Shown here: positions 5,320 to 63,294 of the stretch, one piece after another | Position numbering within the stretch: the first letter of the stretch is position 1 | How the letters are laid out: each line of letters opens with the position of its first letter | Source of the DNA: Malania oleifera | Taxonomy: Eukaryota; Streptophyta; Magnoliopsida; Santalales; Ximeniaceae | Reading direction: 5' to 3' | Length of the DNA: 64,000 nucleotides | Assembly: GCF_029873635.1 (NCBI RefSeq) | Contig: NC_080423.1 | Location: 110,935,087-110,999,086, forward strand | The notes under the pieces: model-generated | Seen by the model: only the letters and a program-made list of their open reading frames with translations | Database searches by the model: none | Told to the model about the DNA's origin: nothing | Position numbers and translations under genes: made by a program

Positions 5320-8300
5320 TCATCGCCATAACCGACTTATGAAGCCCTTCTTGTCTTTCTTCATTCTGTTATCAAGAGATGGGAACTCAACAAAATTATA
5401 GGCAAGGTCAAGAACAATTGGATTGCGTGGGATTTTTTGGAATGCTGGAGGGAAGGGTTCAATGTGTGGAGCAGCCTTTGCATTTGAATCACCAACTGCA
5501 GACTCGTACACGTCCAGTTTCTCAGTAAGGAATATATCCGGCTGTAAAAAATTTTCGAAAAAAAAAAAAAAGTCAATCAAAAGAGCATGTTACACTCACC
5601 AACATAAAAATAAAAATGCAGAAAACTTTAGTATGAATCCCAACATGGAAGTAACATGCTTCGGAAAGGCATTACCAATACTAATCAACCAAAAAATAAA
5701 TAAACTATTCAATAGTTCATTCCAGTACGAGGATGCATCAATTGTAGCATTAAAGAAGCCCCCCACCTTTAATTCGGTGAAATCACTCCCTGAGTTTCTA
5801 TATACAATAAAAGTGAGAATGAGGGAACAAGCAAGGTCATCAATGTAAAATCTTTTAGTTAGACAGGTGTATAATTTTGTGCTTATTGCATGTTGGGTTT
5901 TTTTTTTTTAGTCACGAATTTTATTTGATCAAATAGAGTCCAATCTGGTGAGAGTATGTTTTCTCTTTCAGCTTAACTTTCTCTTCTCCTTTATCTTGCT
6001 TTGGCCCTCGGTTCATCACACCTAAATTAACTTTCTAAATTTACCAAAATTTCCAAAACAAAATAAAAATCCTGAATTCTGACTTTATAGGTATAATTGG
6101 GTTTTAATCAGTGATAGACAATGCTTTGGGTTCAAGTACGAAGCTGTAGGGAATTGCAATTCAAATAGGAGAGCTGGAGCACCAGCTCTGGACAAACAAC
6201 CTGAATATGGGGACAGGCTGGTTTGGAGGGGGATTGACATATATAAAAGAACACTTTGTTGATTCTGGAAATCAGCAGGATTGTTCTCTGCCCATGGGCA
6301 GGAACTTTGAAATTCATAAAGAGCAGAACAATGTAGTGGTGGATGAAATTCGGGATCATGAGAAAGATTATTCACCTTTACCTATTTTAATTGCTGGGGT
6401 TGAATCTGATATATTTGGAGGGGTAGCTGAAGGGAGAGGGTGTGTGTTGGAACAGAGTGGGGATTAATATTTAATACTAAGTTACAAAGTTGCTGGTTCT
6501 CATAAAACTGGGCAGCAAAGTATTGATTTAATGCAGACTTCTACAGGAAGAGTCTTGTGGCTGAGGGGAATTGGTGATTTTTAGAGCCTCTATGGGACAG
6601 GAGGGGCAACGGTTGTTAAAGAGATTGGGTTGTAAGTTAGTGAGTCCTCTAGGTTAAGATTTGAAGGTTGTTGACTAGTGTTGCTAGTAATTCAATGATT
6701 TGAGAGGTTTTTTTTTTTTTTTTGTATGTTCTTTTAGATGTTAAGGGATCATGTGGAACCACTTATGCAAAAGTGATTTTTAGAAAAAATGCTGAATTTA
6801 ATAAGTGCTGAATTGGAAAAATACTGAAAGTTATAAATGATGTTTGGTTGTATTTAAAATAAGTGTCATTTGGATACTTACTTTTATTATAGGGTACTAT
6901 ATGATTAATTTTAAATATATTTAAAATTACAAATATTAATATTTTTAATTAAAGTTTCCATTAATAATTATTTTAACTATATAAATTAAAATTTAAATAT
7001 TTTTCATTAAAGAATAATATAAGATTTTTATTTTTAATTAACAATAATGTTGTTATTAATGTATATTTATAACATATTACTATCATATTAAATTCTGATA
7101 AAGAAATAAAACTAATTAAATTCAAAATTTCAATTTATTTAATGTTAATTTAAATTAATAAATAATTCTTGTTCAATCCACAATTGAATTATAATAACTA
7201 ATATGTCATAATACATAGTTATTTTTAATCATATTAAAATAAAATAAAAAATATTTTATAATTAAAAATGTAAATGTTTTTTATATTAATTTTCTAATTA
7301 AAATTTAATTATTTCTATTAACTAAAATAATATAATATTATTTATTAATTAACAATAATCTTATTATTAACGTATATTTTTAAAACATATGATTATCACA
7401 TTAATTTATGTTAAAAATAGTACTAATAACTAAATTAAAAAAAATTAGTTTATTTAATATTAATTTAAATTTATGGATCATTCTTTTTATTCATTTCAGA
7501 ATTTGATTATATTTTATTAATAATTAATAGCTCATAATGCACAATAAAATAATATACAGTTATTTTTTAATTAATAATTATGTTAACTGTTATTTTTAAT
7601 CATATTTAAATATTTTTATCAATTAAAATATTATAATAATATTATTTTTTGATTAACAATAATCATGTTCTTAATTTATATTTATAATATATGATTATCA
7701 TATTAAATTATATTAAAATAACATTATTAATTAAATTAGTATTTTTAATTTTTATTACTACTTGAATTAATAGATGGTTCTTCTTCTTCATTCTAGAATT
7801 AAATTATGTTTCATTAATAATTAATATATTATAATACATAATAAAATAGTATATGATTATCTTCTATGTAGTTTTTAAATTATAAAATAGCCACTAAATT
7901 TTCTTATATTTACAAATTTGACCTTACTTACGGACAGTGCTACTTATAAGTGGCAAAAAAGCTATCTTCTATTGTTTCTAAAAAATTTACTTAAATAGTT
8001 CTCAAAAAAGTGGTTACGGAAAAGCACTTTACAAAGTGTTTATTATAGTACAAGTCAAACACTATTTTTTTAAAAGTGCTTATTTTAAGTGAAAAGTGAT
8101 ATAAGCAATTTTTTTAGGTGCTCGCAAACAGGGACTAAGGATCAAGGTTAAAAAGGCAGTTCACTTCAGTTTATGGACCTGAGAAGGCATTTGAGGAAGA
8201 TGGAATTAGAGCAGTGTTTGTGATGGAAAGAGATAAAACCTCTGGGCCAGATGGGCTTTTCTAAGGTTTGTTGGGACTTTTTTTTCTTTTTTTTAATAAA

Positions 8301-11300
8301 TAATAATGGTGGATAAAAGTGTTAACTCATATTTTATTACCCTCGGTCCTGCAAAAGACTGTTCAAAAATCTTGACCAAAGTTCTATCTGAGAGGTTTGC
8401 TGGTGTTGGGATGGAAACTATTTCTCATAATCAGATTGTTTTTATTGGTCATTGTCAGATTTTAGATGCAGTTTCAGTAGCAAATGTCATTGTGGACGAT
8501 AGTTTTAGATGTTAGGAGGAGGAGAAAGGTAGTGTTGATTCTTTTGAAATTTGATTTGAAAAATGTTATGAAGTTATGATCATGTAGCTGGGGTTTTTTG
8601 GATAAACTTTGGGATAGAAAGGGATTTGGGATGGAGTAGAGGAAGTGTACTAGAGGGTGCAATGGTCCATCTCTAGTTTTCTTGGTTTTAGAGAATGAAG
8701 AGGCCAAGTCATGGTTTCAATTAGAATGGTTGAGAGAGGAATCGGGTTTTGATATAAAGGATTAAGGTGGGTCATGAGGATTTGTCCATCTCAAATTTAC
8801 AACTTGCAGCATTTTCTCCCATACCAACAAAAACGACAGCTTCTTACCTGAGAAAATATGCGTGTTTCATTCCATCCACAGGCCCCAAAATACTGCAAAT
8901 ATGGCACAATTCCGTAATGCTTTATCTTCCTTTTTCCAACCAGAACCGATAAAATGAATTGCCAAAAACTCCTTCACTGTCTCTGGACAAACCCAACATT
9001 CCTCAACATAATTAAATAGCTTGTTCCAAATCCTCCAGGCACTGGATCAATTTTTCCAAGAGTAGCATTGTGGGAATTGTTATTGAATAGAGTACTCTTC
9101 CTTTTCTTCTTGCTAATATAGCAGTTGTGGTGTTTTTTTTCCCCATTACTTGGGGTGTTCCCCTAGGTAGTAATCCTACAGCTGCTTTTGGGGATCTAGC
9201 TTATGAGAGAGATTTTAAGAGGTTAGATAGATGCATAGCAGTTTTCTTTACTTTAGGTCATATTACTACCATTCAGGCTTGTCTCTCTTCTATTCCATTG
9301 TATTGTATGTCTGACTGTACCTGTTTAAGATTCTTGCGAGGGTGGCATGAGAGTAGAGACTGATGAGGGATTTTTTATGGTCCTGTGATGGTTAGAGAGT
9401 CTGATCATCACATAGGTTGGGGGATAGTGCACAGATTGGGGGATAGTGCACAGATCTAAGCAGGAGGGGATTTGGGTCTAGGTGATTTCGCGTCCAAAAC
9501 ATTTCCTTGATAGGGTAGTCATTATGCCATTTTCCTTTATAGTTAACTCTTTTTGCATAAAATAATTTGAGGTTTGGGTTCCATTGGAAGCTAAATGGAG
9601 TTAAAATTCTTATGTGAATCCTTGAAAATTTTCTTCATAGCTTTATAATTTTTTTTTCTCCATCGCTGGTGGTAATGGGGAGAGGATTTGATTTTGGGAA
9701 GATCACTAGAATTGGGAGGCTTGTTTGGCTCAAGTGCATCCGTCTTTTCTCTATCTTTCATGATACTCTGATTTCTCTGCAATAATGGGAATTTTAGTTT
9801 TTGGGAAACTTGACTGACAGAGAGATGAATGATCTTGTCTTTTGTTGAATGTGCTTGATTTGTTTTCTTGTCAGTTCGTCTTCACTTGATTCATGCTCCT
9901 AATTCCAATCCTTTTTAAAGCTAAAGTTCCTTAAATAGTAAAGGCTTTTACTTAGACACTGATATTTAATAAAACCAATACTACTGATTTGCTTCAGAAG
10001 AAAAAGACCAAGTAAGGCTCTGTCATCACCAGATGTATGTGTTCTTTGTTTTAGGAGTGAGGAGACATGTTCATTTTCTCACATTGTCCTTTTGCATGGA
10101 TTATTTGGTGTAACTTGTGCAGAGTTCTTGGTGAGAATTGAGTTTTTCTATCACAATCCCACATCAGACATATATTAGGGAGGTCTTGTCCATGTACAAA
10201 TGATTTAGGCTTTGAGGCACCTTTAAAGAGCAAAACCGTGAGGCCCATGGGCTAGAGCAAACAATAGCTCAATGCTATCGGGCCAAGACCATTACATTTG
10301 GTATCAAAGCCACACTAGGGTACTCTCATGTGGGTGGGTCCTACACAAAGATGTAAGTCCCACAAAGTTGTGGGCCACTCGGATGAGGGCATCAAAGATC
10401 AAAACAGAGAGCAAATCACAATCCCACATTAGGCAAGTACTAGGGAGATCACGGCCATATTCGGATGACTTGGGCTTCAACCTTAAAAGGTGCCTTATAT
10501 GGATCAAAATTGTAAGGCCCATGGGCCACAGCACAGGTATTACGTTTGGATGCTTTGTGTTGTTAATTTTAGAGGTTTGGATGGAAGGAGAGGAACTCCA
10601 CCTCTGATGCACTTAATGTCTTTATCATTTCACACACAGCCAGTCCCAAGCCTAAGTAAAGGAGGGTTGCATTAGGTAGCTAATAACCAGCATAAAATTT
10701 TTCAAATCACTATTACATGAATCCTTATTGAATATTGTTAGGGCATCCCCTACGAGCGACTTATTGCACTTGTACCACCCGGATGTACTGAAAGTGGGCA
10801 AGGGAGGGCTACGTTGTCGCCCCGAAACGACATGCCGTGTCGGCGTCTAGATACAATGTCAAATATGCAAGTGTTCTTGCATCATTCTGGACGTGGGCAG
10901 GTAAAGAAGTTAGTTCAAGAGATTAGGATTAGATTAGCAACTTGGAATATAGGGAGTCCAGTGTTTTAAAAGGTGTTCTTGAGGCGCGCCTCTTGATGCA
11001 TTTTGGGCCTAAAACGCCCTAAGGAGTTAGTAGAAATGCGTAATTCCTAAAAGGTGTACGCTTCAAGTGTAAAGTTTCGCCTTTTTACGCCTTAAATGCC
11101 AAGGTGTACGCCTTTCGAGACTCTTTGTTTATAACATATATTAAACAGGGCAAAACCCCGAATGCATCGAAAGCCCTATCCTCCCTCTCTCCCACAAAGC
11201 TTCCTTTGTTTTTCTCCCTCGAAGAAGCCTCCAACGAGTCTTCTCCTAGATGATAGCCTCTACTCTCTCTCCGACGATTCCTTCAGCACCTCCTCTCTCC

Positions 11301-14300
11301 AAAGACTCGACAGCTGCTTCCAACGATTCCTCCAAACTTCTCGTCTCTCTTCGACGAGTCGATGTTCCCTTCAAAACTCTAATCTACATCTGACGAATCC
11401 TTCTGATGTATTTTTTCCCTTCAACGAACCCTTCGGAGCTGTCGTCTCTTTGCAGTCTCTCGCCTCTCTCCGCGGCACTCTCACCCTCTTGTAATCTCTG
11501 CAACTATGTTGGCTGCAACTAGCTTGTAGAAATTAGACTCTTGAGACATTTTTAATTTGGCTTTTTCTTATGGCTCATACTTATTTTTTTTAATATATAT
11601 TGCTTGTGTTTGTTAGTTAAAAGTTAAAACTTAAAATTGGCCTATATGATATTAAAAAATTATTTTTTTATATTTTTCTCTATTATTTTAAAATTTTTCA
11701 CATTTTTTTATTATATATAAATTGATTTTATTTATTAATTATTTTAAAAAATATAGTCCCAAAATGCTTACGCCTCAAGGCTTACGCCTCGCCACGTGGA
11801 GGGTAAAACGCCTCGCCTTACACCTTCGCCTTTTAAAACACTAATAAAGACACTTACGAGTAAAAGCATGGAAATTATGGACACAATGATTAGAAGAAAA
11901 ATTAATATAATCTGCTTTCAAGAAACTAAGTGGGTTGGGGGAGAAAGTTAAAGAAATTGATAAACCAAGATTTAAACTTTGGTATAATGGAAAAGAAAAA
12001 CATAAGAATGGGGTAAGAATTATTGTAGACAAAAACTTAAAAGATAGCGTTATAGATGTAAATTGAGTAGGGGATAGAATTAAAATCAAAATGATCTTAG
12101 GCCAAGCGATAATAAATATCATTAGTGTTTATGCTCCTCAAATAGGCTTAACAAAAAAATCTTAAGAGCCAATTTTGGGAAGATATGGATAGTATTATAC
12201 AAGGCATATCAGGGACTCGGAAAATTTCCATAGGAGGAGATTTGAATGGATATGTTGGAAGGGATAATAAAGGTTATGAGAGGATACATGGAGGATATGG
12301 ATAATGGAGACAAAAATAAGCCAGAGGAGATGATCTTAAACTTCGCTATGTCATATGATTTTATTATAGTGAATACTTGCTTTAAAAAGAGAGAACACTT
12401 AATAACCTTTAAAAGTGGACAAAATAAAAGTTAAATAGTCCTTCTTCACTAGCAGGGTAGATCATTTATCATGCAAGGATTGTAAAGTTATTCCAGGTGA
12501 AAGCTTAAGCACACAACATAGAGTCCTAGTGTTAGATATATGTATTAAGAAATGAAAAAGAAAAGATAAAATAAACCAAGGTAAGAGGACTAGGTGGTGG
12601 AACCTAATGAGAGAAAATATAATAAAATTTAAATATAAAACAATCAAAGATGGTGATTGGACGATAGATTATGGGATAGATACAAATATTCTTTGGAGTA
12701 GGATAGTTAGCTCTATTAAAAAATAGCAAAAAAGATTTTAGATGAATCAAGTGAAAGATTCTCAAGTAGTAAGAAAGTTGGTGATGGCATAAAGATGTCC
12801 AAAAAGCCGTAAAAACAAGAAAAATAAAAAATGTGATATAAAAAGTGGTAAAAATGTAGAAACATGGATAACTTTGAAAAGCATAAATAGGCGTGAAAGG
12901 ATGCAAAAAAGGTCATTAGTGAAGCTAAACATAGATCATTTAATAATTTGTATGATAAATTAGATACAAAAAAAGGGGAAAGAGAAGTATTTAAACTTGC
13001 TAGAACAAGAGAAAGAAAGAGTAAGAACTTAGGTAATGTAAAATGTATAAAAAGTGAGGATAATATTGTTTTGGTATTAGAGTTAACGAAATTAAGTTGG
13101 CACTAAAAAAGATGAAAAATTGAAAAGCTATGGGACCGGATAACATCCCAATGCAAAAATGTAGAAACACGGAAAACTTTGAAAAGCATAAAGAGGCGTG
13201 AAATGATGCAAAAAAGGCCATTAGTGAAACTAAACATAGATCATTTAATAATTTGTACGATAAATTAGATACAAAAGAAGGGGAAAGAGATGTATTTAAA
13301 CTTGCTAGAGCAAGAGAAAGAAAGAGTAAGAACTTAGGTAATGTAAAATGTATAAAAGGTGAGGATAATATTGTTTTGGTATTAGAGTTAACGAAATTAA
13401 GTTGGCACTAAAAAAAATGAAAAATGGAAAAGTTATGGGACCGGATAACATCCCAATTGAAGTTTGGAAATACTTAGGTGATAATGATATTATATGGTTA
13501 ACTAATTTATTTAACACAATTATAAAAACTAAGACAATTCCAAATGAATGGAGGAAAAAAACCTTTAATACCTATATACAAAAATATAAGAGATATTCAA
13601 AATTGCAAGAACTATCGTGGAATTAAACTTATGAGTCATGCAATGAAGGTGTGGGAAAGGGTAGTTGAACAAAGATTAAGGCTAGAAACGAAGGTCTCAG
13701 AAAATCAATTTGATCTTATGCCCGGGACATCATACTACAAAAGCTATAAATCTGTTGAGAAGATTAATGGAAAAGTTTAGGGAAAAGAAGAGAGACTTGT
13801 AAATGGTATTTATTAACTTAGAGAAAACATATGGTGGGTTTTAGAAAAAAATGGTGTATGTAGTAAGTATACTTATGTCATTAAGGATATATACGACGGA
13901 GTAATGACAAGTATAAGGACAATAAATGGAGAGACCACACCAATCACCATAGGTGTACATCAAGGATATGCTTTGAGCCCTTATCTTTTCGCTTTAGTGA
14001 TAAATCAACTGACTAAGAGTATCCAAAATAAGGTTCCATGGTGTATGTTGTTTTCAGATAATATTGTATTGATTGATGAAACTAGAGGCAGAGTAGAGAC
14101 AAAGCTAAAATCATAGAGAGAAGCTTTGGAATCTAGAGACTTTAGGATAAGTAGAAATAAGACAGGATATATGAAATGTAATTTCAATAATAGTAGGAGG
14201 AATATTGGAGAGAAAGTTAAACTTAATGATGAAGAAATAAATAACACTTGTAGATTTCGATATCTAGGATCTATTATGCAGGCTGAAGGAGAAACTGAAG

Positions 14301-14833
14301 AGGATATAATGCATAGAGTGAAAGCAGATTGGGTAAAATGTAGAAGTGCTTTAAGTGTGCTTTGTGATCGTAGAATACCCTTAAAATTAAAAGGGAAGTT
14401 TTATAGGATGGCTATAAGATCAGCTATATGGATCAGAATGTTGGGCAACGAAAAAACATAATATCGAAAAAATAAAAATTGACGAGATGAGAATGCTTAG
14501 ATGGATGAGTGGTTTAACACTACAAGATAAATTAAGAAATGAATATATTCGCGGTAATTTAGGTGTAACTTTTATAGAAGATAAGATAAAGGAGGGATAA
14601 CTCAGATGGTTTGGGCACTTGCAATGAAGGCCACATAGTGCGCCAATGAGAAAGAGTGAGTTAGTTACTATGAGAGGCAGTGGAAGGGGTAGGGGTAGAC
14701 CTAAAATAATTTGGAATGAGATAGTAAGGATTTAATAGCCCTGAATTTGTCAAAAAAATGGTCCATGATCGCACAAATTGGCGGAAAATGATTCATATAG
14801 CCGACCCCATCTAGTGGGACTTAAGGCTTGGTT

Positions 14834-14864
<31 letters not shown>

Positions 14865-32800: not shown

Positions 32801-35800
32801 TCCCAATTCCGATCTTGTTCAAACAACAGAGTCCCTTTCATGTAAGAGGCATAGGCCTACAAATTCGACATCGAAACGTGCTCAATTGAGAATGGACAAA
32901 GTCATGTCACATTTTCAGTAAGGGATAGAATACTGCTCAAAATGAAGACTACTATCTTAACATAAAAGAATTTCTATACTTAGTTAATGGCAATAGATGT
33001 TTAAAAATGAATAATCACAATGATATACATGATTAAACACATTGGCAGTTGCTAAATCTAATGCACCATTATCAAGGGCAAAAAGATATTCAAGGACATA
33101 ACATTTAAAAAAAAAAAAAACGTTCAGGTCAAGGTCAATCACGCAAGGCACATGCACCGAAGTGTCAATGTCATGTAAACACATCCAACTGGCCTTCTTA
33201 TGTATGAGTTGTAACCCATGCACTATCTCATAGAACTAGCCTAACTGTTATCAAATATTGAGCCGGCTGAAAGTCATAAAATCTCAATATTCTTATATTT
33301 AACATTTAAAAATGCCACTATCAAAATGTTGATTCCTTGCAAAATGTCAGACAGAAGACTTTGCATTTACCAATATAGACATTATTGTTCTATACAACTA
33401 TACATAATGTTGTACTTGTCAAAATTAATTACTTAAGCAATGAACTACAAAAATATTTGACATAATTTACAAACATTATATATGATTTCTTTTTGGAAAT
33501 TGATCATATGTATAGCTCCCTTTAACAATTTTTGGTTCTTAGCTAGTTTTTTTTTTTTTTTTTTTTTGCATTTTATCAAAATTTTCTCCCATATTTTCTC
33601 TTTCTCAATATTATCCCCCCTCCCCTCAGCATAAAACCCTAGTTTCATCCTTGCATGGTAAGGCTAGCAAAGGTGGGGAAGTGACACATGACGAAAGTAC
33701 CACTTTTCTGGAGCTTTGAGCATGGAAGAAAAGAATGTTAAATATTCCATCACATTGTCCCCCTTCTTGCACATTATGGTGATGGAGGTGTTGAGCCTCA
33801 TCTTGAAAAATATTACCAAAGGCAGGCACCTTAAAGGCCTCAGAGTTGGCAGGAATGGAAGGTCCATGGATGTGACAAATCTCTTGTACGTGGATGATAC
33901 CATCAATTTTTTGTGAGGATGACCCTCTCCATATTTTTTTTAGATAATAAAACAAATCCATTAAAAATAAACCATAATTACAATAAAATGAGGATAAGAA
34001 ATCCCCCAGCAAAAAGCACAAAAGAAAAAACAGGTAAAACTAACAAATTACATCAGATATGCTTGTCAAGCCCTTTGAATGTCAGACAGCAAAAAAACCC
34101 CAAAAACTCCAAAAATATGAGCCCAAAAAGAAGCAAGAAAAATAATTTCTCCCAAAGCAACCTTGGAGAAGTCTTTTGATCTTTAAAAACTCTAGCACTC
34201 CTTTTCACCCAAGATGACCACAGGATTTTTTTTTTTTTTAAAGCGCAGCACCAAAATATCCTTTCTCTCTCCTTCCAAAATCCCAAAATTTCACTTTCAA
34301 AAAATCCTGAATTGTAGCTAGAGCCACCCATTACTCACCAGTGTATGAAAACAAATTGTTCTACGTGCATCTTGCTACAAGGTTAGAGACAATATAAATA
34401 GTGGTCGTAATGAGCTTCTGTACAAGTTTTTCTCAAATAAAGTGGCAATCAACTTCAATGTGCTTTGTCCACTCATGGAAGACAGGGTTAGAGACAATAT
34501 AAATAGCAGCTCGATTATCATGCATCAACTCCATAGGCTGAGAATGTGGAAAACCTAGTTCTTTCAACATGTTCTTCAGCCAAACAAGTTCACATGTAGT
34601 GTGTGCGCCATAGCCCTATACTCTAACTCAACACTCAACCTGGCAACCACAGTTTGTTTCTTACTTTTCCAAAGCACCAAATTACCACCGACAAAGATAC
34701 AATACCAGGTTGTGGATCTTCAATCGGAAGGTGATCCGACTCAATCTGCATCTGTATATCCTTGAATATGAGTGTGACCCCAATCCTGATATAAGAGATC
34801 TCTCCCTAGTGCACCTTTGAGACGTCTCAAAAATGCGAATTATTTCATCTAAGTGACTTGTTCTCGAGGAATTGAGAAACTAACTCACAACACTTAATGC
34901 GAAGGATATATCAAGTCAAGTGACTGTGAGACCATTCAATTCCAACAAATATCTGGTATCAACCTAGGTTAGGCAACAAATCATCCATATCTGGCATTAA
35001 CTTACTATTAGGATTCATGGGTGTATCAACAGGTTTGGATCTCAACAACCCCGTCTCGTCTAAAAGATCAAGAACATACTTCCTCTATGACAGTTCCCGT
35101 ACAAGATCTCAATACTTTTATACCCACGAAGTACTTTAATGGTACCAAGTCTTTGGTCTGAAACTTACACTGTAGAAAAAGCTTTAGGCCCTGGAGTGAT
35201 CTACTACACACAGATGAAGGCCAAAGTCAAGTACTACAACACTAAAACAGCCAAATCATGCTCTTGGAGATTGTTTTAATTTATACAATGACTTCTTGAA
35301 CCAACATACTAAGATCGACTCCCCCTGAGCAACAAACCCAAGGGGTTGCTCCATATACCTCCTCATGAAGATCACCATGTAGGAAAGCATTTTTCACATC
35401 TAACTGATGTAGAGGCCAATGACAAGTGGTGGCAAAAGAAATGAACAAATGTACTACGGCAAGTTTAGCAACCGCGGAGAATGTGTCTAAATAATCCAAA
35501 CCATGCACCTAAGTATACCCCTTAGCAACAAGGCGGGCCTTCAAACGAGCCACAGAACCATCAAGTTTGACTTTCACATTGTACACCCAACAACAACCAC
35601 AGACTTATCAAGAGGAGGAGGTACCAAATACTAAGTATCATTATCATGTACTGCACACATCTCTTCAACCATTGTCGCCCTCCACCCAGAATGGGATAGG
35701 GGTTCAGAAATAGATCTTGGACAAGCAATAGAAGACGGAGTACTAACAAAATAGTAACAAGAGGGTGACAAGAAATCATAGCAAACAAAATTAGAGATCA

Positions 35801-38800
35801 GATAATGGGTACAAGTGTGTTAACCTTTTTAAACAGCTATTGGAGGATCAACATCACAAGAAATAAGATCATCCGACGAGGGAACTAGAGGCATAGTAGT
35901 AGAAGCTAGAGGAGGCACTTCCCCCTTGAGTCGTCATGTGTATACCTACGAATTGGGATGATTCAAGCAACGCGAAGGACTCAAACTAGATGAAGATGTA
36001 GGAGGATTTCGCACAGATACTAGGTTTGGATTTAGAAGGCAAGGCGGAGGAAGAGACTCGTCAAGGTCAACAAAACTCAAGGAATCAAAGTAGTATTGTG
36101 GAGATTCAAAAAAGTTAACATCAGCAGAGACAAAGAATCGATGTAAGGTAGAACTATAACATTGAATATCCCTTTTGAGCACAATATCACCCCAAAAGAC
36201 TTTGGGGACATTCATTTGATACAATAGGGTACGAGTGACTTCAAGAATATGCTTGTTTTTCTACTCTGCAAGTTCATTTTGTTGTGGAGTGTGGACACAA
36301 GAGAACTGATGGATCATACCAGAGTTAGTCATATAAGTATTGAATTGGGTACTGAAGTACACCTTTGCATTATCACTATGAAGTATCCTAACTGGCATGT
36401 CAAATTGAGTCTTTATTTGGGAACAAAAAGCACAAAAGATATCAAACAACTCGGAACGATCTTTCATTAAATATAACCAAGTCATCCTAGAGTAGTCATC
36501 AACAAATGTAACACAGTACCGAAACCCCAACTTTGATGTCACACGACTAGGACCCCAAATATCAAAATGGACAAGCATGAAAAGACTAACCACCCGTTTG
36601 TCGACTCGGGGAGCAAAGCGAACACGATGATGCTTGTCCAATTGACAGGGCTCACACTCAAGATTAGACATAGAATTCAACGTAAGAACTAGCTTTTTCA
36701 ACTTGTCCAAGAACAGATGACCAAAGCGACAATAAATTTGAAATGGTGTAGTTGCAATTATGTAGGCAATGGGTGGAGAAGGCAACTCAAAGTAGTAAAG
36801 TCCACGAGCCTCACATCCTGTACTAATTGTCTTTCCCGTCTTCAGATCCTAAATAACCACAGAATCAAGAAGGAATGTGATAGAACAATTTAGTGACTTT
36901 GTAAGCTTACTAACTGACATAAGATTGAAAGGAGATTTAGGAATGTAAAAAGCAGAAGAAAGAAAGATAGAAGGAATAGGATTTATGGCTCCTATCCCCT
37001 TAACAGTAATAGTGGACCCATCAGCAAAGGTAACTTGAAGGAGATTTTTAAGACATTGGAGATCAAAAAAGAAGTTGGTTGCACCTGTTATACAGTCAGT
37101 GGCAGCAGAATCGATAATCCAAAGGCTAGTAGGAAAGATACCAAATGACAAGCAGACTGTAGGACTACCTTTCTGGGCAAAAGAAGCAATGTGATAAGAT
37201 GCTTGCTGACACAATTGATACTATAGAAACCTTGAATACTCCTCTGATATAGTCACTGAATGCAGTTCACTCAAACAAATGGCTAACAAAGGAATCACAC
37301 TTTTGGGATTTGCAAACGTTGTCCCGACTCCCAACATTCACAAACTCAAACCAATGATCATAAGATTAATTGCAGAAACAATTGGAACAACCACGAACAA
37401 GGTGACCTACCATGAACAAGCCATAAATAAATCAGTACAAGGCTGCCATAGCACCAAGAAAATCATGCGCAGCTCCAAGAAAGCAACACTCAGCACTGGA
37501 ACAATTGGAGAGGTGAACCACCAAAACTACCATGAACAAATCACCAACAACCTCAGATGCAGCCCCAAAGAAAGCAACAATGCCACAGCCTCCACACACA
37601 CACACACACACACAAATCCTGCTTATGAGCACTGTCACTGCCCCAAGAAGGTCACCAATGACCGTTGCTAACACCAAACAACAACTAACAAACTACCATG
37701 AGTGCATTGTCTCAACAACGATTGGATCTTGGAGCAAAAACACATGCCTAACAGCTTGATATTTTGGTATATTGAAGGAATTAGAATAGTGAATCAAAAA
37801 ACACAGCAAATCCCACTGTTTCAGACCCAATAAACTCATTAACAATTGATAAACAGATTTACAAAGCATCAAACAACCATTCCTTAGGTCCCACACTGCC
37901 ACGGACGAGGTGAACAACTCACCAACGGATATAGTGCTGCCACAGCCTCACAAATGAACATATGAATGCTGCCACGGCTCCAAAAAACTCAGAAAGAAGC
38001 CTTCACAAGCCTTGAACAGACATTAATGAAATGCCATGAGCGCATAGTCAGAAAAATTCGAATTTTTTAGCAAAAACTGGCCTAACAGCTTGATAATATA
38101 GTCTAAAGAAGGAATCAGAGCATGGCAGAGTAAAAAGAAAAAAGAAATAGGTGACCAGAAATTCACTCACTCGCTGGCGCATGGGATTGGCCCTGCCGGC
38201 ATTTGGCCAGTGCATGGTGGCTCCTCCAGCGATGGGGTTTTGTGGGGTGAGTTGTCCGGCCAGGGGGGGTGGTGGTGGTTCTGTTTATGGGTGTATGGTT
38301 GATTTTTGTGAAATAATATGGGATGGAGGTGAATCTAGGAAGGACAGCCGCAGGAATGGAGTTTTCCAGCAACGGCTGAGGAGTGTAGGGTTTAGTTTGG
38401 ATCATGCTCTAATACCTTGTTTGAGTAATTGGATAAAATGAAAGACCTAAACAATGATAAGTCTCTCCCTCTATTTATAACATATGAAAGTACAATAGGA
38501 ATGACCATAACACCCTTAATAACTCACACTTATTACTATCAAAACTAACACAAAATAATAACAATGCTAAAATATTAAATAACCATTAACAGGGTCGTTA
38601 GGGAATTTTTGTTGCTGTTGCCAAATTCTGTAAGAGAACAAGGTTGAGCAACAAGGGTGAGAAGGAGCCTAGTCTGAGATGGAGAGATCATGAGAGGGAC
38701 AGAGACTACAATAGTTATTTTTGCCAAGAAACCTCAATTTGGACTTGAATTTCAATGCTACAAAAATATAAAAATTTCAATGTCAGCTCCAAGTTTCAAT

Positions 38801-41800
38801 TTTCATTTTTAAAAAGTGATGGAAATGAGTACTAAAAAATTTTTTTATGAAAACTTTAGAAATTGTTCATAGACATAATAATACAAGATATAAAACTAAA
38901 ATATTGTAAATAAGCATGTGGTGTGCAAGGTATAATATAATAAACATGTTAATATAAATAAATTCATTTGTATCAAGATAAGATATAATGAAATTCATAA
39001 ATCAGTTATATATTACTTACTAAGCAAATACAACTAATTCATATATAGAAGGTTGACTATAATGTTGTCATTAATGTGTGAGTTTGATTTTGCATAAAAT
39101 TTCAAGTCATAAAGCCATCACTCTTTTTTTGGTTTTTTTGATAAACAAAGAAATTATTAGAAAATGCTACCATTCAGGCCTTCTAGTGAGAAACTTTATT
39201 TTCAACAAAAAAAAAGACTTATACTTAGACAGAAATTTCAATTTGGAGGGCTTTGGATCTCAATTTCAATAAAAAGGAAATTTTGTTCCTTAGATTTAAA
39301 CAAACTTTGTTGTAAATTCAAGTTTTCAATTAATTTTAAATGATTTACAAAAAATTTGACCCTTGTTTCAATTTCAAGGGCATTGGAAAGCAATTTTTCA
39401 GCACAAATTTTAACATTTCAAAAAAATTTATGACTTTTGTAAAGGGTAAATTTGTCAAAACGATTCCGAAAAGGGCTCTGGCCAATCAAGCAACCTACAA
39501 AATGCTAATTCAGTTAGAGGTACTAAGAGACAATAGCTTTACCCAAAGAGCATCAGTTCAATCAAATGGCACCTAAATCTTGACCATTCAACAACTCTAG
39601 AGTTCCTTCTATAACTTAAATATTGAAATATAGAGATATGTACAGCTGGTGACACAAAATGCTAACATTAACAAACTAAAATATAAATTATCTTTCTAAA
39701 ACATCACTACAAGATTATAATACTTTACTAGTGCATGGTACTGTTCTGGAATGCTCATAATCATTCGAATGACTGACTTTCATAAAAAGGTATGTCAGAT
39801 CTAAATATACAATAAACAATTTAGGATGGCAGTTAAGGCACTGCAAAACCCTTCAAGAATTGGAAAGGATGGAAAATTACAACAAAATAAAGATAAAATG
39901 CAACTCAAAATGCATAAGGCTCAAATTCCATATGATCAGGACTCCAGGGAGGGCATGGCCCTTACCACCACACATTTGGAGAGGCTGTTTTGTGACTTGT
40001 GCTACTGACCTTCAGGCTTCAGGTTTGGGTGTAACTGTGCGACACCCTTATCATTGAGTGTAACAACAAAATCAAGATAATTAAAACAAAATTATCCTAC
40101 CTGTGAAATAACCATGGCAACATATGAAAAGCAATAAATAGAACTGATAGAGCTTGTAATTCTTAAAATGTCAACACACCTCAGCTTCTAAAGATGTTCT
40201 AGAATCTCCTTTGATTGAACACAGCTGTGAAAATAAAGTAGCCCATTTTACTGCCTTCCTCAGCCTACCAATTAAGTAGATGCGTTGGTGTGCATTTGGA
40301 CCATCTTGTAGCTGTTTTTTCTCCATGGCATGGCTCCAAGCCCTTTCTGCTGTGTAAAGAACTAGATGGAGAAACCTATTTTGGATCCAAATAATACAAG
40401 CAATTAAATATTCATTAACTGCAGAATTAACCATGTAAGTGCCCATTAGCTGTAGGGTTATCCATATAAATATTCATTACTATGTAGAGTTGAAAAGATG
40501 TTTTACAACTAACATACAGAAACTGATCCTAAAGATTGCTGTTTCCAAATCAAATATATAAAGAAAAAATTATCTAGTGCTCATTGTAGACATGCTGATG
40601 CTATGAAAAAACACGTTCAACAAAATGGATAAATAATATTTAAGAAGAAATAATACTCATTTTTTACAGACATTAGGTTTCTAATTCCAACGTAAAATGA
40701 CATCACAATTCAACCTGTGTTCCGACCGAGTATGTAGCATACACACATTTATGCTTCTTAGCCACAAAAACTAAAATGAAAGTGCATGCCATACATCTAC
40801 CAATATAAAAATTAAACAAGATGGAATATGTCAGCAGCCGCAATCACAAAACATATAGAATGGTTTATGGAAAACAAAAAAATTTTTTGATAAACTCTAA
40901 ATGAAACATACATCAACTTCATGGCTGATCTATTAAGATAACAGCATGCAAACATTTTGTTTTATGAGATGAACAGATTGCTGACTGCGAGAAGTATAGA
41001 TCTCAGTTCATTTTCGTACATAAATAAAAGAAACAACTGCATTTCCTGATAGTAATGCAAACCTAAATGCATCCATTTTGTTAAAAAAAAAATTGATAAC
41101 ATAACATAATATCCACTCGAAGTAACAGTACTCATTCCATTTGGATCAACATGTGATAACATAACATAATATCCACTAGAAGTAACAGTACTCATTCCAT
41201 TTGGATCAACATGCTTAAGCCTTTGACTAGAGAAAAAATACATGAAGAAACAACAGGCCTTAGCAAAACCTCGATGCCTCCTATGGTGTCATTTTTTATT
41301 TAAAATTTTCAAAATATTATTCTATATTGGTTTGAAGGAAGAAAGAAGTTATGGCTTGCAATTTACTTCAACTATAACCCAATTTGAACTATTCACTTAT
41401 GGAACATGCATCTCATGTGACACATACAGAATTTTTTACTGCGTAATCACTTTCTCATTCATTAGAACCCAACCCGAAATCTTCATTTATTTATCTTCTT
41501 AAATTCCCACATCAAAAGGAAAACTTAAAAGGTAGAGCAAACAGCTCAAATTCCCACATTTATGACCTTTTTTCTCTCTGTAAGTCCTCTTTGGAACCAA
41601 ATGAAGAATCAATACAATGTAGCTTGACTTCTTTCACATGGTCATTGAAAGTGTCATGACCCAAGCTTGTTCAGGGCATTATGCTGGCCTGTGACGGCTT
41701 GCCTCGTGTTCATGCAATGGGTTACCATCATGTAAATACTAGTATAGGGTTTATGCTTTGACTGTGTTTATGTCTTAGACTCTTAGTGTAAAATGGGAGT

Positions 41801-43377
41801 ATGACTCCTTAGACAATTTGATATCTCCTAATGTCAAAGCTAAAATAATATATAAAGATCTTTAGGGGAAGGTGAGTGTTTATCGCTCTTGTAAAACTCA
41901 CCAACATTTGTTAATAGTGTTTAGCCTACTTGCCTCCCTTGTTAATTACATGTTGCTTGTGAATACGTTGTTAATGAATTATGTTGCTTCAATGTTTATT
42001 GCTTGTTTGCCATTTGCATTCATGAATTGCTTACTGCTTCCACTTAGTCAACTATTGTGAATGTGTTTGTTGGTAAACCACAATAATTTTTGGCTAACTA
42101 GTTAAATAAGAGCGTTTTGGCTACTGCTGCATGTCCCTTCACCAGGTGTGAAATATCTGGCTAGTGGCACAAAGGAAGGTTTACAATAAAAGTTATGCTT
42201 GACGCTGTAATGAACAAATGAAAACATATAGGGTAAAATTAAACTGCAACCTCATATAATTACAAGTTTTAATCCCAACCTCCATTCACGAATCACAAAA
42301 AATAGTGCATTGTTGAGGTAAAGTAAAGAATGATCTTATATCTTATATCCAGTCCCCCAAAGTAAGGAGCCATATGGCCTAGGGACGCCCTTTTATACAT
42401 TTAAAATGATATAAAATTCAAAAGCATGATCCTTAGCAAAAATATATATATATCTATATAGCTATAAATTCTTTTCTACCATTTTTCTAAAAACCCAATG
42501 GGCCACTGCCTCCCACCCTAAGCAGTAGCATATTGACTAGCATTGACTTTCTCACTCTCACAAAGTCACAAGAAAACTTTCCATAATAAATGTGCATTTT
42601 CATCGAATTTGATAATTTTATTTTAATTAGCGGCTTCTAGCTTACTCTCTTGTAAAACTATAGAGGAAATATGGGCAGGAAAAATGGAAGAATTTTATTT
42701 GCTCAATTATATATAATATTTATGAATAACAATCACACCCGACTAATAAACAGAGGGGAGGGAATCATTCAAACAAACAAGGGCAACTGCACAACAAGAG
42801 CCATCAATTTTCAAGCAATGCACAAACCTCACTTCGGTGACGGTGGCTTCAGTGATGGCCCGTCGAGTATATTTACCCCGACCATGGGTAAATTTCAATG
42901 ATTTATACAGCCGCCTTAATCGAGCGGTGCAATACCTCCTGCAACTCACCAATTATATGTCTCAAAATAATGACGCCAAAAATCACTAATTAAACCCTAG
43001 ATAAAGCCTTCTATCGACCAACCTGCACAGCCGCTAGCTCCTATAAAGCAAATTAATCAATCAAAACCCTACCAGATTCGCACATACCGATATCGAGTAT
43101 AATCCCCGTGGCGTAATCCGTGCTGCATCTGAGCAGATTTCAAGAGCTGCAAAACTGACAACCAAACCAAAATGAAATCCAATCAAAACAAGCACCACAA
43201 ATTTTGGAAAACTAGTGGTTGCATGAGAAATATATATATATATATATATAAACAAATGTACATGAGAGAAAAAGTGGGAGCGAGACCATTGATTGAGAAC
43301 TTAGGGTTGATTTGATCTGAAGCATGTGATTTTGGAGCGTCAATTTCCATGGCCGATGCCTCACTTTCCTTCCCCAT
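5320..43377 (-). CDS. SRP68: Signal recognition particle subunit SRP68, 13 coding exons over 38 kb
   Basis: SRP68 binds SRP RNA and SRP72 in the particle that brings ribosomes making secretory proteins to the ER. Exons, 5' to 3' on the minus strand: 43377..43287, 43154..43088, 42938..42828, 40375..40180, 32856..32771, 32589..32394, 31785..31674, 22359..22232, 22072..21899, 21747..21638, 16199..16070, 15551..15402, 5541..5320 (stop at 5322..5320). Every intron is GT-AG, phases agree at each junction, and the sum is 1,773 bp (590 aa); I recall Arabidopsis SRP68 as about 600 aa. Diagnostic segments are [13 protein letters not shown] (exon 3), [10 protein letters not shown] (exon 4), [12 protein letters not shown] (exon 6), C-F-Y-L-A-K-S-Y (exon 11) and [11 protein letters not shown] (exon 13). 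Residues about 50-250 are the helical RNA-binding domain. The C-terminal exon should bind SRP72 by family knowledge. Introns 3, 4, 7, 10 and 12 are 2.5, 7.3, 9.3, 5.4 and 9.9 kb and mostly transposon-filled; the others are 0.13-0.6 kb. The gene looks functional. The 5' and 3' UTR limits are unknown. Confidence 0.95.
5542..6739. other. 3' part of SRP68 intron 12 without an assigned element
   Basis: It begins next to the exon 13 acceptor, which has a polypyrimidine tract with a poly-T run at about 5561..5573. From about 6085 to 6650 the composition becomes more balanced and could be the upstream part of the L1 that resumes at 8146, but I recognise no L1 motif in it. No gene is supported. Confidence 0.4.
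6740..8135. mobile_element. AT-rich MITE-like element with three internal repeats
   Basis: A block of extreme AT content is flanked by segments full of AAGTGCTTATTTT-like motifs on one side and their complement on the other. These form imperfect, long terminal inverted similarity. The right edge (tagg-tgctcgcaaacaggg, to about 8135) is of the plant MITE type. Inside are three diverged tandem units of about 305-310 bp, each starting at an ACAATAAT motif (near 7041, 7352 and 7656). There is no coding capacity. It probably inserted near the L1 that resumes at 8146. The class is uncertain. Confidence 0.45.
8146..10628 (+). mobile_element. Degraded L1-type LINE fragment in SRP68 intron 12
   Basis: A string of short frames matches plant L1 ORF2 in order. 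It starts with a pre-RT segment ending D-K-T-S-G-P-D-G (about 8195..8262). Next is RT text with K-V-L-S-E-R and Q-I-L-D-A-V-x-x-A-N-V (8306..8515), with the usual F-R-P-I-S-L block deleted. Then come a degraded palm, a [10 protein letters not shown] block (about 9150), and the C-terminal reverse-transcriptase zinc-binding region (about 9930..10110). Many frameshifts and stops are present. A TRIM-like element (10151..10544) interrupts its tail, and the RTE LINE begins just beyond. No endonuclease part is recognised, so it is truncated at the 5' end. Confidence 0.75.
10151..10544 (+). mobile_element. TRIM-like miniature LTR element nested in L1
   Basis: Two direct repeats (10151..10296 and 10416..10544) both begin TCACAATCCCACAT and share GGCCCATGGGC near the end and an ATTAC[AG] terminus. 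Just after the first is TGGTATCAAAGCCA (10299..10312), a primer-binding site for initiator tRNA-Met. Before the second is a purine-rich run. This LTR-PBS-short interior-purine tract-LTR layout at about 400 bp is that of a terminal-repeat retrotransposon in miniature. It is non-coding and old, since the two repeats are only about 70% alike by eye. Target duplications were not identified and the 5' edges do not show a clear TG, so the bounds are approximate. Confidence 0.55.
10960..11842. mobile_element. MITE-like insertion with AGTGTTTTAAAAGG terminal repeats
   Basis: A 14-bp perfect terminal inverted repeat is seen: AGTGTTTTAAAAGG at 10960..10973 and its complement at 11829..11842. The inner flanks are dense in GCGTAAG / ACGCC / GAGGCG motifs, like the subterminal repeats of DNA transposons. 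The element splits the RTE endonuclease: reading across it, G-S before and L-I-K-T after stay in frame, which proves insertion. The centre (about 11160..11500) is CT-rich and holds a 110-codon Ser/Leu/Pro-rich open frame unlike the flanks, perhaps captured host sequence. No transposase is present. No clean target duplication was found, so the superfamily is unassigned. Confidence 0.75.
12850..13458. repeat. 305-bp tandem duplication inside the RTE LINE
   Basis: Two adjacent copies (about 12850..13153 and 13154..13458) both run from AAAAATGTAGAAACA to a GGGACCGGATAACATCCCAA block. They are nearly identical, with scattered single differences. The period measured at the GTAGAAACA motif is 305 bp (12856 to 13161). 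It duplicates the linker between endonuclease and reverse transcriptase, so it arose after or during insertion of this copy. Confidence 0.9.
14865..15401. other. Intron 12 5' end, unassigned
   Basis: The stretch between the RTE tail and SRP68 exon 12. The first 250 bp are T-rich. I recognise no element and no gene. It contains the intron 12 donor region next to 15402. Confidence 0.5.
16553..17234. mobile_element. hAT-type MITE copy B in SRP68 intron 10
   Basis: The termini are imperfect inverted repeats: CCTGTTTAGTATTGTTACAG at the left and, on the opposite strand from the right end, CCGTTTGGTATCACTGTCAG. The 680-bp interior is AT-rich and non-coding, with a short (TA)n run near 16850. Its reverse complement matches copy A at 199..700 over most of its length. 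The family resembles hAT-derived MITEs with GTTTGGTATCA ends. Target duplication is not clear. Confidence 0.7.
17645..18745 (+). mobile_element. Chromovirus-family LTR fragment in SRP68 intron 10
   Basis: It starts TGTAGAGACC like the LTR at 48684..50777 read on its own strand. Then come the TTCGTCGACGAA array (about 17725..17885), a TATAAAT motif near 17891, a CT-rich leader and the conserved segment around CAAATCTGCTGGAGTG (about 18050). The 3' part reaches only the tandem-repeat zone with CCGGCGTAAGGGCCGTG units (about 18640..18740) and then stops, so it is a truncated LTR fossil. It is antisense to SRP68. Confidence 0.75.
17723..17885. repeat. TTCGTCGACGAA palindrome array in LTR fragment
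   Basis: About six copies of the 12-bp palindrome or one-step variants lie in 160 bp, just before a TATAAAT motif. The same array is found at 54450..54640, 57915..58135, and on the minus strand at 50500..50700 and 63350..63540. Confidence 0.85.
18880..20190 (+). mobile_element. L1-type LINE 3' fragment in SRP68 intron 10
   Basis: Frames match the C-terminal third of plant L1 ORF2. A segment after the RT palm reads [10 protein letters not shown] (about 18970) and G-L-G-I-K-L-I (about 19070). The zinc-binding region follows, with [14 protein letters not shown] (about 19643..19685) and a C-R-L-C-E-T-G motif with H-x-x-x-x-C-type spacing after it (about 19710..19770). The frames are broken repeatedly. 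The 5' two thirds of an L1 are absent. Orientation is antisense to SRP68. Confidence 0.75.
20378..21254 (+). mobile_element. RTE-clade LINE 3' fragment in SRP68 intron 10
   Basis: A 5'-truncated RTE begins in the H-Q-G-S-T-L-S region. It keeps the catalytic block [13 protein letters not shown] (about 20497..20530) in a 92-codon open frame, followed by E-Y-M-K-C-I-F. The rest of the C-terminus is frameshifted. The 3' end has the clade's CTAGTGGGCCTTAAGGCTT motif and an imperfect (TTG)n tail (about 21232..21254). Unlike the copy at 10630, the F-A-D-D box is intact here, but the copy is far too short to be active. Confidence 0.85.
22360..23268. other. 3' end of SRP68 intron 7, unassigned
   Basis: Unique-looking AT-rich intron sequence between the exon 8 acceptor and the L1 poly-A tail. 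No element or gene is recognised. Confidence 0.5.
23269..26390 (-). mobile_element. 5'-truncated L1-type LINE, longest copy in the window
   Basis: Read on the minus strand, it starts in the last part of the endonuclease ([11 protein letters not shown], about 26340..26300). A long linker frame follows (26267..25479, 262 codons) with [12 protein letters not shown] and K-S-P-G-L-D-G-F. The RT frame (25386..24415, 324 codons) has [22 protein letters not shown] and the catalytic [11 protein letters not shown]. The zinc-binding region is at 23740..23351. The 3' end is a poly-A (poly-T at 23269..23279 on +). Only a few frame breaks divide these blocks, one near a poly-C run at 25434..25446. It is relatively young and lies in the sense direction of SRP68 intron 7. 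Confidence 0.9.
26466..27070 (-). mobile_element. RTE-clade LINE fragment, minus strand
   Basis: On the minus strand it encodes RTE C-terminal text: [11 protein letters not shown] (about 26676), [18 protein letters not shown]. Upstream are remnants of the M-L-F-A-N-D-type catalytic region (about 26900). It directly abuts the L1 at 26390. The short stretch 26400..26469 between them carries a plus-oriented GTTTGTTGTTGTT tail that may belong to a separate small element. Confidence 0.7.
27071..27925. other. SRP68 intron 7, unassigned
   Basis: AT-rich sequence with a short imperfect (TTG)n run (27843..27865). No gene or family is recognised. It ends with the first of two 31-bp direct repeats (27870..27900 and 27926..27956, two differences). 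Confidence 0.45.
27926..28140 (+). pseudogene. Possible PIF/Harbinger transposase C-terminal remnant
   Basis: The + strand frame contains [16 protein letters not shown] and, after a stop, [14 protein letters not shown]. An acidic stretch followed by R-D-x-I-A-x-x-M-W-x-D-Y near the C-terminus is typical of plant PIF/Harbinger transposases. The fragment is about 65 codons and has no DDE residues. This assignment rests on that short motif only. Confidence 0.35.
28230..29255 (+). mobile_element. L1-type LINE 3' fragment in SRP68 intron 7
   Basis: Frames match the end of L1 ORF2. [17 protein letters not shown] appears about 28310..28365. The zinc-binding region follows with K-I-S-T-N-N-L-L-Q and [17 protein letters not shown] (about 28700..28820) plus Y-A-W-R-I-W. 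A poly-C run sits at 28613..28626. The fragment ends in a degraded A-rich tail near 29250. Frames are broken several times. Confidence 0.75.
29447..29935 (-). mobile_element. Probable L1 3' end, minus strand
   Basis: The + strand begins with poly-T and GGATAAGAAGAAATGTAAT, which mirrors the 3' tail of the L1 at 23269. Minus-strand frames are short and Cys/Phe rich (29908..29708), like decayed L1 C-termini. No diagnostic motif was found, so this is tentative. Confidence 0.4.
29945..30715. mobile_element. Putative MITE or non-autonomous DNA element
   Basis: Both edges carry related inverted text (left GTTTGGTGGCTAAGG, right CCTAGCCTAGCC...). Internal motifs CATGTTTGGATTAGG (left) and CACCAAACATGGG (right) also face each other. 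The interior has a low-complexity 96-codon frame of no known family. The termini are imperfect and no target duplication was fixed. Confidence 0.35.
30716..31673. other. 5' part of SRP68 intron 7, unassigned
   Basis: Mixed AT-rich intron sequence up to the exon 7 donor at 31673. I see no gene, no recognisable element and no clear repeat. Confidence 0.45.
32857..33704. other. 3' end of SRP68 intron 4, unassigned
   Basis: AT-rich intron sequence next to the exon 5 acceptor, with poly-A (about 33107..33120) and poly-T (about 33547..33568) runs. No element recognised. Confidence 0.5.
33705..33925 (+). mobile_element. Short L1 RT fragment
   Basis: A 66-codon frame starting at 33716 reads [14 protein letters not shown] and, near its end, [12 protein letters not shown]. 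This is the L1 RT region from the L-S-P-L-L-F block to the catalytic [FY]-x-D-D box. Both sides are cut off. Confidence 0.7.
33926..34335 (-). mobile_element. L1-type LINE 3' end, minus strand
   Basis: The minus-strand frame (34331..34053) has W-K-E-R and [17 protein letters not shown], the L1 tail block found downstream of the zinc-binding region. The minus-strand 3' end lies at a poly-A-like run near 33935. It abuts an opposite-strand L1 piece on the left and the copia element on the right. Confidence 0.6.
34340..38591 (-). mobile_element. Broken Ty1/copia element with short LTR in SRP68 intron 4
   Basis: Parts, in minus-strand order: a short 5' LTR (38591..38418), a primer-binding site (38416..38405), a leader/gag zone, protease-type text (about 37230..36850), a gag-pre-integrase and integrase zone (about 36785..36000), a reverse transcriptase zone (about 35600..35000), and RNase H-like text to about 34340. 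Order protease-integrase-RT is that of Ty1/copia. No 3' LTR was found, so the end is missing. It is clearly broken, with roughly ten or more breaks. It looks old. It has the same orientation as SRP68. Confidence 0.8.
38418..38591 (-). repeat. 174-bp 5' LTR of the copia element
   Basis: It is bounded by TG...CA on the minus strand (TGTTAATGG at the start, TCAAACA at the end). One base further is GGTATTAGAGCA, a primer-binding site of the initiator tRNA-Met type (38416..38405). A TATAAATAG motif lies on the minus strand near 38470..38480. Only one LTR is present. Confidence 0.6.
38592..40179. other. 5' part of SRP68 intron 4, unassigned
   Basis: AT-rich sequence with several imperfect 'ttcaatttcaa' runs between 38740 and 39420, where a diverged internal repetition may exist. 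No gene or family was recognised. Confidence 0.45.
40376..42827. other. SRP68 intron 3
   Basis: A 2.45-kb intron with a 60-bp tandem duplication (41095..41214) and no clear transposon. A TGTCATGACCC-led segment from about 41654 could be an old LTR edge, but no partner end was found. Confidence 0.55.
41095..41214. repeat. 60-bp exact tandem duplication in SRP68 intron 3
   Basis: Two adjacent 60-bp copies (41095..41154 and 41155..41214) start GATAACATAACATAATATCC. They differ at one internal base and at the last base. It is a recent local duplication without coding content. Confidence 0.97.
43229..43251. repeat. (TA)n microsatellite in SRP68 intron 1
   Basis: About 11 TA units lie 36 bp downstream of the exon 1 donor inside the 132-bp intron 1. 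Length variation is likely. Confidence 0.9.
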
Positions 43378-48683: not shown

Positions 48684-50398
48684 TGTAACGACCTGCTTAA
48701 CTTACTACATAATCAACCGTATTAATCATTATTAAATACCCTGATACCATTAACTAATGAGATAATAATGTCAACCCGAACCCGTGGGTAACGGGGACAC
48801 ACCTGTCATACACAACGGAAACTTAGGAAGCAGTAAACATAAATTTCATTCATCAAACCATAATATACATTATACTAAAGTTACCTACATTCCACTATAA
48901 TACTGTATATGTACAATCCCCAAAACATCAAAAGATATATCTAGAACCTTACAACAAAAACCTACTGATCCTAACTCAAAAACTCACCCTTCTAGCGGGG
49001 TAGTATAGGCTATCTCAACGGCGGGCTCGATCCGCCTGTCTCTCTGGGTCCTTTGAAATGGTTTAAGTTAGGGTGGGACACCTCTCAGTAAGGGAAATAA
49101 ACTAAATATAGTTGTGTGGCAACATGAATATTTACGTGCTATATTAGATATATAATAAATGTCACATACTTGATGAGTTATGTATTACCCCCCATGACGA
49201 GTTATGCAACCCGAAGGCGGGACCCGACAATGGCTGGCCCACCACTGCCGAGTCAAAAATGTTTGTAAGTGTGATGGGCCTACCGCACTTTGATTTGAAT
49301 TTCCACGTGGATGTCTACAACTCTACACTAAAATTCATATCGACTATCCATCTCCCACCCCCTTTACTAGCAGGGACAGTTAACACAAGTCTGAACTGAA
49401 CTAAATTGTATAGCTATGGTACCGTGCTCTTGGAACTGATATGAACTATCATCCGTGTTCTAATAACATACAGTACATGATAATATACTGTTTTAACATA
49501 AATAGATTGATAGCATTTTCTATAATAACATAAATAACTACAGCCTTGCGCCGATTACATTCATAAGTGCAACCTTGCGCCGAAAACATGCATAATTACG
49601 GCCTTGCGCATCTATCAATCCCGACCTTGTGCCGAACATATCATACATACTGATCTGAATAAATGTACTATATTTTATATATTCTGAAATCATAGTTTAC
49701 TATATTATCATGTTATTCCTGAAAATAGCTGCAAACATGTTTTTTTGTGTAAAATTGACTTAACACAATACAATATGCGTAAAATAATATTCATGCCACA
49801 CAAATTGAATAAAATCATGAATTCTATTTCGAAATCACATTTCGTGACATTTCATACCAAAAATATACATTCCTATGTAACAGCAATATTTTCCCAAATA
49901 TACGTTTTCACAAATATGCTCATATATAACACATGCTTTCTGAAAATTATTCTACTATCAAGTAATAATAATTTTTATGAAAAATTACTGCTTTAGTTTA
50001 CTCCCTTACCTGACTACTAGAAAGCCCCCACAATGTCTAGTCCTAATAATAATTTTTATGAAAAATTACTGTTTTAGTTTACTTCTTTACCCAACTACTG
50101 GAAAACCCTTACAATGTCTAGTCCTACACCCGCAGGGTTTCCCGTTCAACACCTTGAAAACAACATCTCTCTGAACAAAACTTCAGTATTTCTTCAAGTA
50201 CTACATTTTTTACAACTGTAGGAAAGTCAAATACTAAATAAAAAATCTTACTCTGAATTTGGGATGGAGCCCAATTTAACCCTACCAACGATCCACTCCA
50301 GCAGACTTGAAGAGAACTTTCTCAGGAGTGTCGTGGTGGCCTCGGATCATCGAATTGGCAAGAAACCAGCCCAAAATCTTAGAGAGAAGGGAGAGGGG

Positions 50399-50453
<55 letters not shown>

Positions 50454-55732: not shown

Positions 55733-55764
<32 letters not shown>

Positions 55765-63245: not shown

Positions 63246-63294
<49 letters not shown>

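Follow-up and report, generated by a model that had tools for sequence, protein, structure and literature searches.

Can a gene keep its message intact when nearly all of its length is intron and its largest introns are crowded with the remains of transposable elements? SRP68, which belongs to the core of the eukaryotic SRP and binds 7SL RNA, raises this question in the window analysed here, by which we mean the whole 64,000-nt stretch of DNA. We propose, with a probability of roughly 0.9, that the locus is an ordinary and probably functional plant nuclear SRP68 gene, in which retrotransposons of the non-LTR and LTR kinds have enlarged introns 4, 7, 10 and 12 by inserting again and again and then decaying, while transcription passes through the elements and the U2 spliceosome takes out all 12 introns.

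The gene lies on the minus strand and runs from an ATG at 43377 to a TGA at 5320, a span of 38,058 bp. Joining exons from the window sequence gives 13 of them, all on the minus strand: exon 1 (43287-43377, beginning with the ATG), exon 2 (43088-43154), exon 3 (42828-42938), exon 4 (40180-40375), exon 5 (32771-32856), exon 6 (32394-32589), exon 7 (31674-31785), exon 8 (22232-22359), exon 9 (21899-22072), exon 10 (21638-21747), exon 11 (16070-16199), exon 12 (15402-15551) and exon 13 (5320-5541, ending with the TGA). The joined frame of 1,773 nt encodes 590 amino acids plus a stop, with neither a frameshift nor an internal stop. From first to last the introns measure 132, 149, 2452, 7323, 181, 608, 9314, 159, 151, 5438, 518 and 9860 bp, so that the fourth, seventh, tenth and twelfth together account for 31,935 of the 36,285 intronic bases. 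The original prediction had placed an in-phase, 13-exon gene for a 590-residue SRP68 at 5320-43377, and we reproduced it to the base; its further claims, that all introns have GT-AG ends and that coding DNA fills less than 5% of the span, agree with our values of 12/12 and 4.66%. Downstream, a single open frame at 2006-4192 (plus strand) encodes a 728-aa protein with DnaJ and DUF3444 domains and lies tail-to-tail with SRP68, the two stops being 1.1 kb apart. Scans of the whole window with Rfam at gathering thresholds and with ARAGORN returned no matches and no genes, respectively.

The 590-aa product matches the Pfam SRP68 profile (PF16969) over positions 1-564 of 565 with an E-value of 6e-156 and 521.1 bits against a cut-off of 26.1, a match complete enough to rule out chance, and the family assignment is thus settled by sequence match. 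Residues 14-583 align to the mammalian SRP68 of solved SRP particles, best to PDB 7nfx chain u (E 1.3e-84). In the same kind of comparison residues 17-222 match the 4p3e chain and residues 541-582 match 5m72, regions that we take to be the N-terminal RNA-binding domain and the C-terminal SRP72-binding segment. By sequence match, then, both regions are present in the protein. In a review, SRP68 is described as binding and bending SRP RNA and as mediating SRP72 binding (PMC8230904). A difference from the mammalian proteins is a linker in exon 9 that is 12 residues shorter here, the alignment showing gaps of 6 + 6 in a poorly conserved stretch. A comparison of exon 4 with viral contigs gave a single locus (L001) with 69% identity over 16 residues, which we judged from its length to be due to chance.

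What, then, fills the four large introns? We scanned 36 of the intronic open stretches with Pfam, of which 10 matched a transposable-element family (some of them deriving from one element) and 26 did not, and we compared eight element pieces from the window with the window itself by tblastn. Proteins of transposable elements are found in all four of introns 4, 7, 10 and 12, which range from 5.4 to 9.9 kb. At least seven LINE fragments had been predicted in these introns, and eight are supported by protein or DNA similarity. The clade names L1 and RTE that we use for them are our assumption, based on tail features rather than on a tree: an RTE-type LINE has a reverse transcriptase and, in place of poly(A), short simple repeats as its 3' tail.

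Intron 4 contains a LINE reverse-transcriptase fragment at 33755-33910 on the plus strand (tblastn E 6.5e-8), within an open stretch (33692-33913) that has no Pfam match, and a copia body at 34436-37220 on the minus strand, hence sense to SRP68, in which Pol_BBD (1.9e-12), RVT_2 (9.6e-14) and rve (9.1e-12) are recognizable in broken frames and rve precedes RVT_2. The low boundary of this body, at 34436 (about 34.4k), coincides with the edge of an open stretch that has no Pfam match. The copia element that had been predicted for these introns is thus present as a body, but self-comparison of the window detected no LTR pair flanking it. A second copia-type element lies upstream of the gene at 51940-54356 (plus strand) and is a distant relative of the intron-4 copy, with about 26-29% identity in the integrase part.

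In intron 7, an L1-type body sense to SRP68 occupies 23267-26417 on the minus strand (RVT_1 4.4e-27, zf-RVT 7.9e-9) and ends with an AATAAA at 23299 followed by a run of 13 A at 23279-23267; target duplications of at least 7 nt were sought around it and none was found. The same intron holds an RTE-like fragment at 26492-26993 (minus strand), which is inverted relative to its relatives in introns 10 and 12 (identity is 77% with the copy in intron 12, measured over 519 columns, and 73% with that in intron 10), and an L1-type fragment at 28162-28917 (plus strand; tblastn 3.3e-8, zf-RVT 7.9e-7). Intron 10 has an L1-type fragment at 19534-19704 (zf-RVT 1.2e-8) and an RTE-like fragment at 20378-21257 (RVT_1 1.7e-10, 71% to the intron-12 copy), both on the plus strand. 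Intron 12 carries, again on the plus strand, an RTE-like LINE of about 3.1 kb at 11757-14864 with a (TTG)10 tail, whose start at 11757 was placed by eye from an open stretch and whose RVT_1 match at 13817-14113 (E 2.8e-6) falls 2 bits under the Pfam cut-off, together with a reverse-transcriptase fragment at 8366-8509 that is the weakest of the eight (tblastn E 2.8e-4, no Pfam match). Among the three RTE-like copies, RVT_1 is found in two, one of these being the match 2 bits below the cut-off, and one copy has the (TTG)10 tail, another a TTG-rich but imperfect end, while the third lacks its 3' end. Element matches below the Pfam cut-off number three in all: RVT_1 at 13817-14113, zf-RVT at 23354-23767 and gag_pre-integrs at 36264-36848. 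We took matches to ACDC, Imm70, Tll0287-like and MLKL_N in intronic open stretches, all below their own cut-offs, as chance, and did not count as elements the tblastn matches at 9671-9760 (E 0.02), 18912-18959 (E 0.29) and 34280-34167 (E 0.64). The longest stop-free stretches in the introns are 362 aa on the minus strand (stretches of at least 35 aa considered) and 150 aa on the plus strand (at least 45 aa). No open frame of transposable-element length is left, which suggests that the insertions are dead.

Repeats other than these protein-bearing elements are also present. An LTR-like repeat of 0.67 kb in intron 10 (17645-18315, plus strand) is 66% identical to 50054-50777 in inverted orientation and belongs to a family with members at 54745-56668, 58209-59918, 50054-50777 and 62888-63471; its two long copies, in direct orientation, share 73% identity. 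An LTR piece and a TRIM had been named in the original prediction: the former corresponds to this repeat and its family at 50-63 kb, but the TRIM label is not established. In some copies of the family there is a 29-33 bp minisatellite with GCCAGCGTACGGGC (55411-55647, 58763-58952); intron 10 holds an array of related appearance with a 32-bp unit at 18597-18677. A second repeat in intron 10, 0.48 kb long and unassigned as to class and strand (16756-17232), is 73% identical to 201-665 in inverted orientation. This inverted pair is what we can set beside the MITEs that had been named, but that label is not established either: a strict scan for terminal repeats (exact 12-nt arms, near-pure A+T arms excluded, exact target duplication) gave no candidate, although decayed or AT-rich ends would escape it. 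Tandem duplications occur as well: a 305-bp unit, 95% alike, at 12850-13457, which is probably younger than the intron-12 LINE because it lies inside that element; a 60-bp unit, 98% alike, at 41094-41213 in intron 3; and a 297-bp unit present 1.9 times at 7303-7860 in a very AT-rich part of intron 12.

How could such introns be transcribed and removed? We envisage that introns 4, 7, 10 and 12 were enlarged as non-LTR and LTR retrotransposons repeatedly inserted and then decayed, that transcription of the SRP68 pre-mRNA presumably runs on through the elements, and that all 12 introns are presumably removed by the standard U2 spliceosome. We scored the splice sites with a crude matrix, to which all of the following values refer. 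The donors of introns 4, 7, 10 and 12 score 4.5, 2.7, 0.1 and 2.2, and are not consistently stronger than those of the other eight, which range from -3.3 to 4.1. In these four introns the true donor is matched or outscored by 3 of 495, 16 of 482, 19 of 215 and 9 of 382 internal GT sites, the 19 of 215 belonging to the intron-10 donor, GAG/GTTTTC; for the true acceptor the corresponding counts of AG sites are 12 of 374, 137 of 576, 0 of 257 and 27 of 491. Several sites are weak by this measure, and exon recognition over introns 7 and 12 is not accounted for by strong sites.

As for transcription, two studies describe a plant pathway for transcribing through heterochromatic introns: at tested Arabidopsis loci silencing matters for transcription past long intronic elements (PMC4417168), and in rice it is tied to IBM2 (PMC7145194). 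By analogy, silencing of the elements would be the likeliest aid to transcription past those in SRP68. The elements would then be silenced. Plants depend on an IBM2-type pathway for complete transcripts from some genes with heterochromatic introns, and SRP68 may be among its clients.

A first alternative is that intron 7 provides a second 3' end. Because the L1 body there lies on the gene's strand, its AATAAA and A tail could end some transcripts; reading on from exon 7 into intron 7 adds seven residues before a stop, giving a 293-aa protein that keeps residues 17-222 (the match to 4p3e) and lacks residues 541-582 (the match to 5m72), that is, a protein with the RNA-binding region and without the C-terminal segment. 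In Arabidopsis, loss of silencing is reported to be followed by premature polyadenylation at intronic elements (PMC4417168). We scanned introns 3, 4, 7, 10 and 12 for an AATAAA with a run of A8 no more than 40 nt behind it and found three sites, at 23299 in intron 7 and at 8338 and 5925 in intron 12, of which only that at 23299 lies at a LINE tail. The two others nevertheless argue against a special role for the first. So does the abundance of AATAAA itself: the introns are AT-rich, and a count made without a shuffle control gave 5 copies in intron 3, 2 in intron 4, 12 in intron 7, 11 in intron 10 and 18 in intron 12, which makes the motif by itself weak evidence; moreover, a transcript retaining so long a 3' end may be degraded. 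We regard this alternative as unlikely, though it fares best among those considered. It could be carried further into an epigenetic switch, in which lost silencing, for example under stress, would yield the 293-aa RNA-binding-only form; sitting on 7SL RNA but lacking the segment that binds SRP72, this form would reduce SRP function. We offer this as speculation with long odds against it.

A second alternative concerns the RTE-like copies. Those in introns 7 and 10 (or 12) are inverted relative to each other and might pair in the pre-mRNA and favour either back-splicing or skipping of a block of exons, 8-10 (412 nt) or 8-12 (692 nt). The predicted duplexes are far more stable than those of shuffled sequences: one reaches -355.6 against 30 shuffles with a mean of -130 and a best value of -150, and a second -538.2 against 30 shuffles with a mean of -159 and a best of -176, while for a control pair in the same orientation the value is -49.4, its shuffles averaging -58. 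However, the arms are only 73-77% identical, their longest perfect runs are 15 and 14 nt, and the intron-7 arm is 4.1 kb away from exon 8. Skipping of exons 8-10 or 8-12 would shift the frame and bring a stop near codon 290. Nor does the arrangement itself tell of selection, since three copies spread over three introns would include an opposed pair with a chance of 3/4. The nearest known case is in maize, where a review reports LINE1-like reverse-complementary pairs to be enriched alongside circRNAs, whereas such pairs are rare alongside those of rice, soybean and Arabidopsis (6.2, 2.7 and 0.3%; PMC6454147). The likeness to maize lies in inverted LINE copies in introns that flank a block of exons; the copies here differ in being RTE-like and 73-77% alike. 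Overall we find productive pairing unlikely.

Could the gene be a recently silenced copy, with its frame still intact, its expression lost, and another SRP68 elsewhere doing the work? Some weak splice sites (by the crude matrix), the 12-residue gap in exon 9 relative to mammalian SRP68, and the lower number of ESTs for large-intron genes in grapevine (PMC3058033) would be in keeping with this. The 1,773 nt without a stop or frameshift, the GT-AG ends kept in 12/12 introns and the match to nearly the whole PF16969 profile speak the other way, and we think such a history very improbable. We have, on the other hand, counted the weak sites and the exon-9 gap, together with large introns that are not promoter-proximal, against our preferred reading of an ordinary, probably functional gene. 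That the introns are misjoined repeats and the true gene is shorter is hardly credible, for although repeat-rich introns are difficult to assemble, the window contains zero N and the exons are in order on a single strand.

We return to the preferred reading, an ordinary gene with introns swollen by apparently dead retrotransposons, and ask how it compares with what is known. Among the papers listed by our literature search, no title concerned plant SRP68 gene structure. The original prediction presented this gene, which it took to be single-copy and essential, as a natural test of splicing; its gene model and element-filled introns hold, but the gene is one of very many such genes. By itself the locus is of small importance, one more cleanly mapped gene in a well-studied class, and its exact exon and element coordinates allow splicing, intronic poly(A) use and back-splicing to be scored at named sites in whatever RNA data the species may provide. 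We infer tolerance of the transposon load from the intact frame.

In the grapevine study (PMC3058033), 2,697 introns of 3-100 kb are reported in 2,563 genes, with more than 80% repeats including LINE and copia, and with no functional bias among the genes; the SRP68 introns share both the size class and the LINE and copia content of these Vitis vinifera introns. The same genes show signs of lower expression (46.0% against 32.8% represented by a single EST), which suggests that tolerance of the load may carry a cost. The position of the introns differs: in grapevine and rice (PMC3058033, PMC7145194), large or heterochromatic introns are mainly promoter-proximal, and in the 39 grapevine genes compared they are mostly 5', whereas in SRP68 the large introns are 4, 7, 10 and 12, with introns 1 and 2 short. 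Intronic heterochromatin is found in more than 10% of rice genes (PMC7145194). With the IBM2-dependent genes of Arabidopsis and rice, as described in PMC4417168 and PMC7145194, SRP68 shares long LINE and copia bodies in the introns of a coding gene; what defines those genes is a methylated intronic element and a full-length transcript that depends on IBM2. Taken against these systems, the transposon-swollen introns of SRP68 are a common condition of plant genomes and do not amount to a novel phenomenon.
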